Shown one piece after another: positions 2,693 through 57,772 of a DNA stretch of 64,000 nucleotides. Source of the DNA: Lentisphaeria bacterium (GTDB taxonomy: Bacteria > Verrucomicrobiota > Lentisphaeria > Victivallales > UBA1829). The DNA lies in contig JAFVTF010000070.1 in the NCBI GenBank assembly GCA_017503375.1, positions 1 through 64,000 on the forward strand, read 5' to 3'. The notes below the pieces were generated by a model. That model was not told the origin of the DNA. It saw only the letters and a program-made list of their open reading frames with translations, and did no database searches. Within the stretch, counting starts at the first letter, position 1, and each line of letters opens with the position of its first letter. Made by a program: the position numbers and the translations under genes.

Positions 2693-3838
2693 TTAACATT
2701 GCCATTTCAATTCGCCATTGCAGATGGTTTTCCGGACATCCAGATTCTCATCCAACAGTACTATATCAGCGATATAATTTTTTTCAAGTTTTCCGCGCAT
2801 GCCCAAACCAAGACTTTCCGCCTGATTCAAACTTGTTGCACGGATCGCTTCACACAGCGGCAAGCCGGTCAATCGGACCAGACGTTTCAATCCGTTATGA
2901 TACCGCAGGGTACTTCCCGCAACAGGTCCGGTAGTCAATCGGGCACAGCCGTCTTTCACGATCACGGGCAAACCGCCCAGAGTGTAATTTCCATCCGGCA
3001 TGGCAGAAGCACGCATGGCATCGGTGATGAGCATCATCCGTTCAGGACCTTTGAGTTTGGCGATCAAACGGATCATCTGATCACACAAATGCACACCGTC
3101 GCAGATCATTTCCACATAGACGTCATCATCCATCAGACCGCCGCCGACCATGCCGAACCGCAGATGATGGACAGGTGTCATCACGTTACAGAAATGGGTC
3201 AAATGTTTCATTCCTGCAGCACGGTGCTGTTCAAAGCACTCGTAATCTGCTTCGGTATGACCGCCGGAAGGCATAATTTTACGCTCAGCCAAAGCCCTTG
3301 TGAACTCCAATCCGCCGGGCAGTTCCGGAGAAAAAGAAACTTTTTTCACCGGGGAGATCGCATTCAGTTCATCAATGAGTGCAATATCCGGATTTTTCAG
3401 AAAATCGGGGTTCTGTGCTCCGGCGCATGGCGGATTGAAAAATGGTCCTTCCAGATGGATCCCAAGAAGCGTTGCTCCGTCAGTGACATTCTTCTTATAA
3501 TCTTCTGCCAAACGGCACAGTTTTCTTAAATCATCGTAAGAAACGCTTAAAGATGTGGCAAGAAAACCAGTCACGCCATCCTGAAGTTTTCCTTTTCCGA
3601 TCACTTCAAAGGCTTCTGCAGAACCGTCGCAGAAATCATAATCGGATCTTCCGTGAAAATGAATATCAATGAATCCCGGAGCTGCGATCAAACCGGAACC
3701 GTCGATGACGGAATCGAATGATTCCTGTTCCGGGATTTCACCAACAGCAATAATCCGGTCATTTTCCATAACGATCCCGCCCTTTGGAATATCAATTCCG
3801 GGGGAGACGATACGGCAATTTTGAATCAGAGTTTTCAT
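2693..3838 (-). CDS. nagA: N-acetylglucosamine-6-phosphate deacetylase
   Basis: This 381-residue amidohydrolase removes acetate from GlcNAc-6-phosphate to give glucosamine-6-phosphate. Visible signatures are APGFIDIHFHG (metal-binding region), HLEGPFFNPP, GGHTEADYE, HFCNVMTP, and the catalytic ITDAMRASAMPDG aspartate. Length matches the family. Its start overlaps the end of nagB by four bases (ATGA), so the enzyme and the next step of the pathway are translated together. A second NagA gene lies at 52372-53517 with its own promoter. Confidence 0.94.
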   Translation of the reverse strand: MKTLIQNCRIVSPGIDIPKGGIVMENDRIIAVGEIPEQESFDSVIDGSGLIAAPGFIDIHFHGRSDYDFCDGSAEAFEVIGKGKLQDGVTGFLATSLSVSYDDLRKLCRLAEDYKKNVTDGATLLGIHLEGPFFNPPCAGAQNPDFLKNPDIALIDELNAISPVKKVSFSPELPGGLEFTRALAERKIMPSGGHTEADYECFEQHRAAGMKHLTHFCNVMTPVHHLRFGMVGGGLMDDDVYVEMICDGVHLCDQMIRLIAKLKGPERMMLITDAMRASAMPDGNYTLGGLPVIVKDGCARLTTGPVAGSTLRYHNGLKRLVRLTGLPLCEAIRATSLNQAESLGLGMRGKLEKNYIADIVLLDENLDVRKTICNGELKWQC

Positions 3839-55573: not shown

Positions 55574-55864
55574 ATGTCTATTGAAACCGCCAGAGCATTT
55601 TGCATGAAGATGATGAGTGATGATGAATTCCGTGATTCTCTCGGACAGGCTGAATCTGCAGATGGAATCCGTCAGATCATCTCTGATGCAGGATTCAGCT
55701 TCAGCAAATACGACCTTCTGAAAATCGTCGGCGAACTTACCGGAAAGAAAATTGAAGCAGACGAACTGGAAGCAATGGTCTGCGGATTCTATCAGGAAGA
55801 AGTCGCAACCCAGAATCCGAAGGCTGTGGAAAACGTTACCGAATGGTTCCGTTCTCTTGAATAA
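55574..55864 (+). CDS. Nif11-like leader-type protein
   Basis: The 96-residue protein starts MSIETARAFCMKMMSDDEF, the standard Nif11 leader opening, continues with GFSFSKYDL and has ADELEAMVCGF where RiPP leaders end with a double-glycine type cleavage site; here it is CG. The 25-residue tail after it has no cysteine, serine or threonine cluster, so it is a poor core peptide. No RiPP synthetase, protease or transporter is in the window. It has its own promoter and terminator, so it is expressed as a stand-alone protein. Confidence 0.75.
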   Translation: MSIETARAFCMKMMSDDEFRDSLGQAESADGIRQIISDAGFSFSKYDLLKIVGELTGKKIEADELEAMVCGFYQEEVATQNPKAVENVTEWFRSLE

Positions 55865-57091: not shown

Positions 57092-57312
57092 GCTGTTGCG
57101 AAACAACTCACAAATAGAAACTTTTGTACGGAGAAAAACGAGTGCTCAGAGTGTACGGTGGGAGATTATCAAAAGACATGTTGAGGTAATTTCTCCCAAA
57201 AAAAATGAAAAGTTTTGCTTTCCGGCTTGAAAAAACAGATAAATGGAGTAACTTATTGCAAAAAGAGACGGGGGGAAGTCTCACAGTTCATTTACACCGT
57301 AATTTTCTGAGA
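57092..57312. other. Gene-free stretch with little visible content
   Basis: Apart from a weak promoter (57227-57255) and a small GAGAC...GTCTC hairpin (57265-57282), I see nothing. A ten-base match to the terminus of the 165-bp repeat lies at 57183-57192, without the rest of the element. Confidence 0.5.
57227..57255 (+). promoter_or_regulatory. Weak promoter candidate for RNA/ORF at 57313
   Basis: TTGAAA and AACTTA spaced by 17 bases; the -10 is poor. Confidence 0.3.
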
Positions 57313-57481
57313 TTATCCTGAAAAACCGACCAAGTTAAAATTGATAAAACCTCGAAAATATGACGGAAAGTCCGGTACGACTGTTGTCTAAGACAGGTCT
57401 GCCGGGCGCTTCCTTGTGTTTTCGAGGTGGGTTCTTGGTCGGACCTTTCAGGATGATGCTTGGGGGCGTTCGGTTTTTTTT
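57313..57481 (+). ncRNA. Candidate structured RNA, long rod-shaped fold
   Basis: Nested stems are visible: ATCCTGAAA 57315-57323 with 57446-57454, CCGACCAAG 57326-57334 with 57434-57442, ACCTCGAAAA 57349-57358 with 57419-57428, GGAA 57365-57368 with 57410-57413, GTCCGG 57370-57375 with 57402-57407, and a short apical stem. A run of eight T follows at 57474-57481. It lies just upstream of the 87-residue ORF and may be its 5' leader or an independent RNA. No SRP, tmRNA, RNase P or known riboswitch core was recognised. Confidence 0.5.
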
Positions 57482-57508: not shown

Positions 57509-57772
57509 ATGGAAGGTGAATTCTACCGCAGCTACAAAACCTTTGCAATGTATCCGATAACGATTCATTGTAAAGGTATGAAATACAAGGAAGCGACGAT
57601 TCTGTCTGCCGGATTTGCCTCTTTCGGATGCGATATTCATAAAGTCAGCGCTTACATTACCCTGAAGAACGGAACCCCTGAACTGGCAAAAGAATTACTG
57701 GAAATTTTGAATCAGGATGGAAATTTTGTCAGAAGCAATCCTGTCAGCAATTTTATTTATGGCATGTGGTAA
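57509..57772 (+). CDS. Small protein of 87 residues, unknown
   Basis: The frame has an AGGAG site six bases before the ATG and follows the structured RNA. It has no signal peptide or membrane segment; the composition is soluble with an alternating beta/alpha look (PITIHCKGMKY, HKVSAYITLKNG, ELAKELLEIL). One cysteine occurs in FGCDIH. The family is unknown. It is separated from the preceding minus-strand genes and could be the product regulated by the leader. Confidence 0.6.
   Translation: MEGEFYRSYKTFAMYPITIHCKGMKYKEATILSAGFASFGCDIHKVSAYITLKNGTPELAKELLEILNQDGNFVRSNPVSNFIYGMW

Follow-up and report, generated by a model that had tools for sequence, protein, structure and literature searches.

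What is the long rod-shaped RNA that lies just ahead of a small gene in this Lentisphaeria genome, and what might it control? The window analysed here is the whole 64,000-nucleotide stretch of one contig. From its letters, the original prediction described nested stems between 57313 and 57481, ending in a T-run before an 87-residue ORF, and offered a regulatory leader, a 6S-like RNA or a new RNA class as readings.

A conserved rod and its family

The nested stems are where they had been placed and go beyond chance. The stretch 57313-57481 (+) folds at -74.6 kcal/mol, compared with -45.4 +/- 4.1 for 200 dinucleotide shuffles, none of which was as good (z -7.1), and the T-run (57474-57481) does lie just before the ORF, whose ATG is at 57509. 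The description was incomplete, however: these stems correspond to one fold of a conserved pair, and the element extends further upstream. The rod fold, at 57296-57478 (+), is larger than the stretch first described. The reverse strand of 57313-57481 also folds well (z -6.2), because the element is a long near-palindrome. The promoter, U-run and gene are all oriented on the plus strand, which point to this as the working strand.

We aligned 95 distinct copies with MAFFT (alignment A3), and the covariation proposed as a check was found. In the rod 88% of cells were paired, with 677 two-sided compensatory cells against 231 +/- 20 in shuffled controls and at most 173 with the partners slid. The shuffle controls ignore the relatedness of the copies; the slid controls and the remote homologues agree with them. 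The helix made by strand a (rod helix 6) was paired in 97.8% of cells, with both sides varying.

No Rfam 15 family reached threshold in the window and none matched the RNA at any threshold tried; at E up to 10, the one match around the element was at chance level and outside the rod. Literature searches, with incomplete coverage, found no description of it. Acido-Lenti-1 (RF01687), a structured RNA of Acidobacteria and Lentisphaerae (PMC2864571), resembles it in coming from Lentisphaerae, but the RNA described here was unmatched by the Rfam library searched.

The family is widespread, which together with the Rfam result bears out the suggestion of a new RNA class. In 100 related genomes searched at the DNA level, the RNA turned up across the family and order, often in multiple copies. 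When a covariance model built from 29 copies was used to search 149 relatives, 81 carried the RNA at 1-8 copies per genome. A 101-copy model found it in 93 of the 198 genomes of the class, about half, and in 87 of the 388 genomes of the phylum (E up to 0.01). As a specificity control we searched the phylum of a Bacteroidales-labelled record, where the family is rare because only 4 of 248 genomes match (E up to 0.001). The named RNA-bearing records are nearly all metagenome-assembled genomes of Lentisphaerae, Lentisphaeria or Victivallales, many from rumen or colon. Three exact-pattern matches (L182, L210 and L237) carry the labels Bacteroidetes, Bacteroidales and Thermoguttaceae. The Thermoguttaceae-labelled match, on a short contig, has a score like that of a Victivallales copy and could be a binning error; the other two are diverged copies.

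The model found a second copy in the window genome (G000:C106:53924-54104; L064:7925-8105), diverged from the window copy and nearer the family consensus (182 bits against 139 bits). Its contig stops 237 nt downstream, within a repeat. A transposon palindrome was rejected, as the full window query is single-copy in the genome at the DNA level and the second copy is diverged. Searches of phage, plasmid and viral sequences gave no matches to the RNA, the viral scan using the commonest sequence variant only, and a mobile-element or phage RNA was rejected on these empty searches.

The long rod with its internal bubble does resemble 6S RNA (RF00013), and no 6S was detected elsewhere in the window genome. 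A 6S homologue is nevertheless the reading to which we give least credence, and that part of the original prediction was not supported: the 6S model has no match in the genome, at any threshold tried, and multiple cis copies sited before genes, up to eight in a genome and with an alternative terminator fold, do not fit 6S.

Table 1. Position of the RNA, its parts and its neighbours in the window
Feature	Position	Strand	Basis or role
Conserved RNA element, 181-position model; whole length forms the rod (antiterminator state)	57296..57478	+	Model R1 match 139.5 bits, E 3.7e-31; rod covariation
Sigma-70-type promoter	57227..57254	+	-35 TTGAAA (57227-57232), 16-nt spacer, -10 TAACTT (57249-57254); read by eye
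Small 5' hairpin GAGAC-GGGGGGAA-GUCUC, right after the inferred start	57265..57282	+	Sequence
5' half of the alternative state (sensor-like domain)	57296..57400	+	Base ACCG (57296-57299) with CGGU (57373-57376), plus inner helices
Strand a CCGACCAAG	57326..57334	+	Rod partner is 57434-57442; lies in an unpaired loop when the other state forms
Terminator 5' arm CCGGGCGCUUCC	57402..57413	+	Part of the upper stem in the rod state
Hairpin B GGUUC-UUGGUC-GGACC, nested in the terminator loop	57430..57445	+	Overlaps rod strand 57434-57442
Terminator 3' arm GGGGGCGUUCGG	57462..57473	+	12-bp helix with 57402-57413
U-run UUUUUUUU	57474..57481	+	Directly after the terminator 3' arm
Downstream gene, 87 codons, protein of no recognised family	57509..57772	+	Genus-restricted

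Two folds that share bases

The second fold becomes visible at the 3' end. Columns 160-171 of the alignment (CCGGRCGYUUCY) can pair with columns 229-240 (GGGAGCGUUCGG), immediately 5' of the U-run. The 12-bp terminator helix they form was paired in 94.6% of cells and had 64 two-sided changes, compared with 17 +/- 8.5 shuffled and at most 34 slid. Several of its pairs use columns that the rod leaves unpaired or pairs otherwise, and these pairs therefore cannot be put down to the rod; one is 169-231, which is U-A in 43 copies, C-G in 27 and U-G in 22. Hairpin B, within the terminator loop, was paired in 97.2% of cells, one of its pairs being split between U-A (63) and C-G (31). On its own, the 3' half of the window copy forms one hairpin (-38.1 kcal/mol) that runs up to U8. 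In 85 of the 95 copies, 10 or more of the 12 arm pairs can form and 5 or more of the 8 bases that follow are T; the U-run or an arm is missing in a few.

In the same state the 5' half forms a domain that has conserved sequence, folds alone and is present in remote homologues. Its helices were paired in 78%, 92% and 81% of cells over the 95 copies, and the longest complementarity between its inner strands was 7.2, compared with 4.5 when shuffled. These helices vary less and covary less strongly than the 3' half does, and the domain is weaker in the genus of the window than in other genera. Over the whole alternative state there were 157 two-sided cells, against 54 +/- 10 shuffled and at most 108 slid.

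The contest between the folds can be followed at single bases. Column 204 with its rod partner, column 39, is C-G in 80 copies, U-A in 13 and A-U in one, and with its hairpin-B partner, column 195, it is U-G in 79, U-A in 14, A-U in one and C-G in one. In one copy (L128) all three columns have changed in concert. The stem sequences differ in remote homologues from other families of the phylum, yet both folds are kept, as in L281, where the terminator reads GGGCGUCCUUC...GGGGACGCCC-UUUUUU. Read from the alignment, these patterns show that two mutually exclusive folds share bases and are both kept by compensatory mutation, one of the two being an intrinsic terminator.

Translation of a short ORF within the RNA could in principle set the fold, making this a leader-peptide attenuator, and AGGUGAAAUG does open a short frame in many copies. 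This seems very improbable. Frame length varies between 1 and 169 codons and an ATG is absent from some copies, so the reading frame is not conserved, and pairing accounts for the conserved letters.

Placement before many unrelated genes

By eye, a promoter-like CTTGNNA ... TGNTATATTA lies at an about constant distance upstream of the RNA in most copies. The window -35/-10 site was not among the sites given by a consensus promoter scan; from its position we infer that transcription starts near 57261. Many copies have short palindromes, differing from one another, at the position of the 5' hairpin (also read by eye).

We took as the neighbour the nearest ORF that had 100 codons or more and lay no further than 600 nt downstream, with ORFs called mechanically. 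In the 82 decidable cases this ORF was co-oriented with the RNA in 77 and opposed in 5. Upstream ORFs were co-oriented in 47 cases and opposed in 33. With the promoter-like sequence upstream and a terminator fold competing with the rod, this placement upholds the regulatory leader of the original prediction.

The 87-codon gene of the window has an AGGAGA ribosome-binding site and starts 28 nt past the U-run. The gap is similarly short in two other species of the genus (28-40 nt across the genus), and a further promoter could not be accommodated there. The ORF is coding, with changes at the three codon positions of 19/12/38, and its protein has no match at the reporting thresholds of Pfam, NCBIfam or PADLOC. 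It is found in 3 genomes of a single genus, at 69-71% identity in the two relatives, which share with the window the RNA, the ORF and panC-maeB-purD. The tie to this ORF that had been proposed is thus not general, as the RNA stands before many unrelated genes. Nucleotide similarity to these two closest relatives begins at 57276, in the 5' hairpin, with unrelated sequence upstream and synteny kept downstream, which suggests a recombination joint at the leader. Elsewhere in the window, 55574-55864 encodes a Nif11-domain protein (Pfam E 1.1e-8), of a type known from the leaders of peptide natural products.

The RNA might instead be a stand-alone small RNA acting in trans, with its own promoter and terminator and the downstream gene a mere neighbour. 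The promoter-like sequence, the terminator at the 3' end, the several diverged copies per genome and the additional terminator before the gene in some copies would all suit such an RNA. It is an unlikely reading all the same, given the 77 to 5 orientation of the next gene and a gap in the window genus into which a second promoter would not fit. The covarying antiterminator rod, moreover, would be purposeless in a free RNA.

A single shared downstream protein family was rejected, as none was found among 81 downstream proteins. Even the most frequent Pfam family, Sel1, is limited to four of them. Others include glycosyltransferases, radical SAM proteins, pilin-type peptidases, sigma factors and Mrr, KAP and GmrSD domains. 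AIDA adhesin repeats occur in 5 further long proteins, one protein is an autotransporter O-heptosyltransferase, and several defence-type families are represented by one protein each. So broad a range speaks against a narrow metabolic signal.

Several features recur around particular copies. Tandem RNAs (L065:2991-3139 and 3380-3517; L066:3007-3155 and 3397-3534) lie upstream of a gene whose product has a KAP-type P-loop NTPase domain, and a GmrSD-like ORF follows beyond it. A conserved stretch 3' of the RNA in L034, L012, L016, L026 and L064 ends in long (GCAA)n tetranucleotide repeats, at which the contigs break; the repeat region could be phase-variable. In L088, L091, L093, L097, L109 and L131 a second terminator-like hairpin, CCGCGAAATCC...GGATTATCGCGG-TTTTTT, recurs before the gene, and in a subset a GGATTTCGC stretch upstream of it could, by eye, pair with its 5' arm. 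A NusG/UpxY-like gene (L082:15842-16378) lies downstream of one copy, at the start of a probable polysaccharide cluster.

Further terminator-like hairpins between RNA and gene were found in 33 of 88 copies, compared with 6 when shuffled. Such hairpins would suit a processive antitermination element, which would modify the polymerase so that it passes later terminators. The put RNA of phage HK022 and EAR of Bacillus act in this way, in cis and near the transcript start, to carry the polymerase past distant terminators, and our RNA would likewise act in cis, near the transcript start. Some of its downstream genes are typical of operons under such elements (long adhesins, glycosyltransferases and the NusG-like gene after one L082 copy). 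Unlike put and EAR, however, its conserved contest is with the element's own terminator, and it has no phage or plasmid match. The window copy serves one 87-codon gene, followed by a convergent gene. The LoaP-dependent dfn leader of Bacillus velezensis is similar in being a long structured leader with an intrinsic terminator and accessory operons downstream (PMC12691694). There a small UNCG hairpin is bound by a NusG paralogue (PMC12691694), whereas the RNA here has no accompanying paralogue and its terminator belongs to the element. Dependence on a NusG paralogue was rejected, as no specialised paralogue is associated with the RNA, and the window genome and most RNA-bearing genomes give one NusG match. 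Overall we consider processive antitermination distinctly unlikely.

A probable attenuator and its signal

The reading we prefer, and consider probable, is that the RNA acts in cis as a transcription attenuator at the head of the mRNA, with the rod as the ON state and the terminator fold as the OFF state. Most likely it switches many unrelated genes on and off. Lengthwise pairing of the 5' and 3' halves in the rod leaves no strong hairpin next to the U-run, and RNA polymerase would proceed into the gene. In the other state the 5' half forms its own hairpin domain and the 3' half the 12-bp hairpin with its nested hairpin, followed by the U-run, and the polymerase would stop. Some factor, whether a small molecule, a protein, another RNA or the speed of the polymerase, may act on the 5' half. 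If that half were held closed, the 3' half could not invade it, and termination would be favoured. Any such signal would have to be widely relevant, because the controlled genes share no metabolic pathway.

In equilibrium folding the rod is more stable than the terminator state by a median of 17 kcal/mol, and by 28 in the window. No prefix of the window transcript prefers the terminator, and the rod forms once its 3' strand is made. As the rod is so strongly favoured by energy, switching would need kinetic control or a bound factor.

An attenuator of this kind would work much as riboswitches with terminator/antiterminator platforms do. Like them it has a 5' domain of conserved sequence, an overlapping 3' terminator and mutually exclusive folds, and recurs many times in a genome, ahead of adhesin-, pilus- or sigma-type genes. 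The c-di-GMP-I/GEMM riboswitch class also has diverse regulons. Unlike riboswitches, the RNA has no known ligand or Rfam match, its genes have no common pathway and its antiterminator is an end-to-end rod of about 180 nt. We class it as an attenuator with a putative ligand domain, and not as a riboswitch. We raise more tentatively, as a possibility rather than an expectation, that it is a new riboswitch class, whose 5' domain would bind a widely relevant small molecule, such as a second messenger, and lock the terminator state, giving one phylum-wide RNA signal through which surface, pilus, export, defence and peptide genes would be gated singly.

Lentisphaeria are abundant in the rumen and gut but poorly studied, and little is known of their gene control. 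Here an RNA that is not listed in Rfam, carried by roughly half of the class and sparsely in the phylum at large, has its competing pair of folds worked out. The double covariation, including a coordinated change of three bases, documents the evolution of a bistable RNA with unusual clarity, and the pair of folds permits a direct test of which condition or molecule halts or frees transcription. The genes that follow the RNA hint at surface and accessory functions in host-associated bacteria. If it does prove to be a new riboswitch class, this bacterial phylum would have one RNA signal gating such genes individually.
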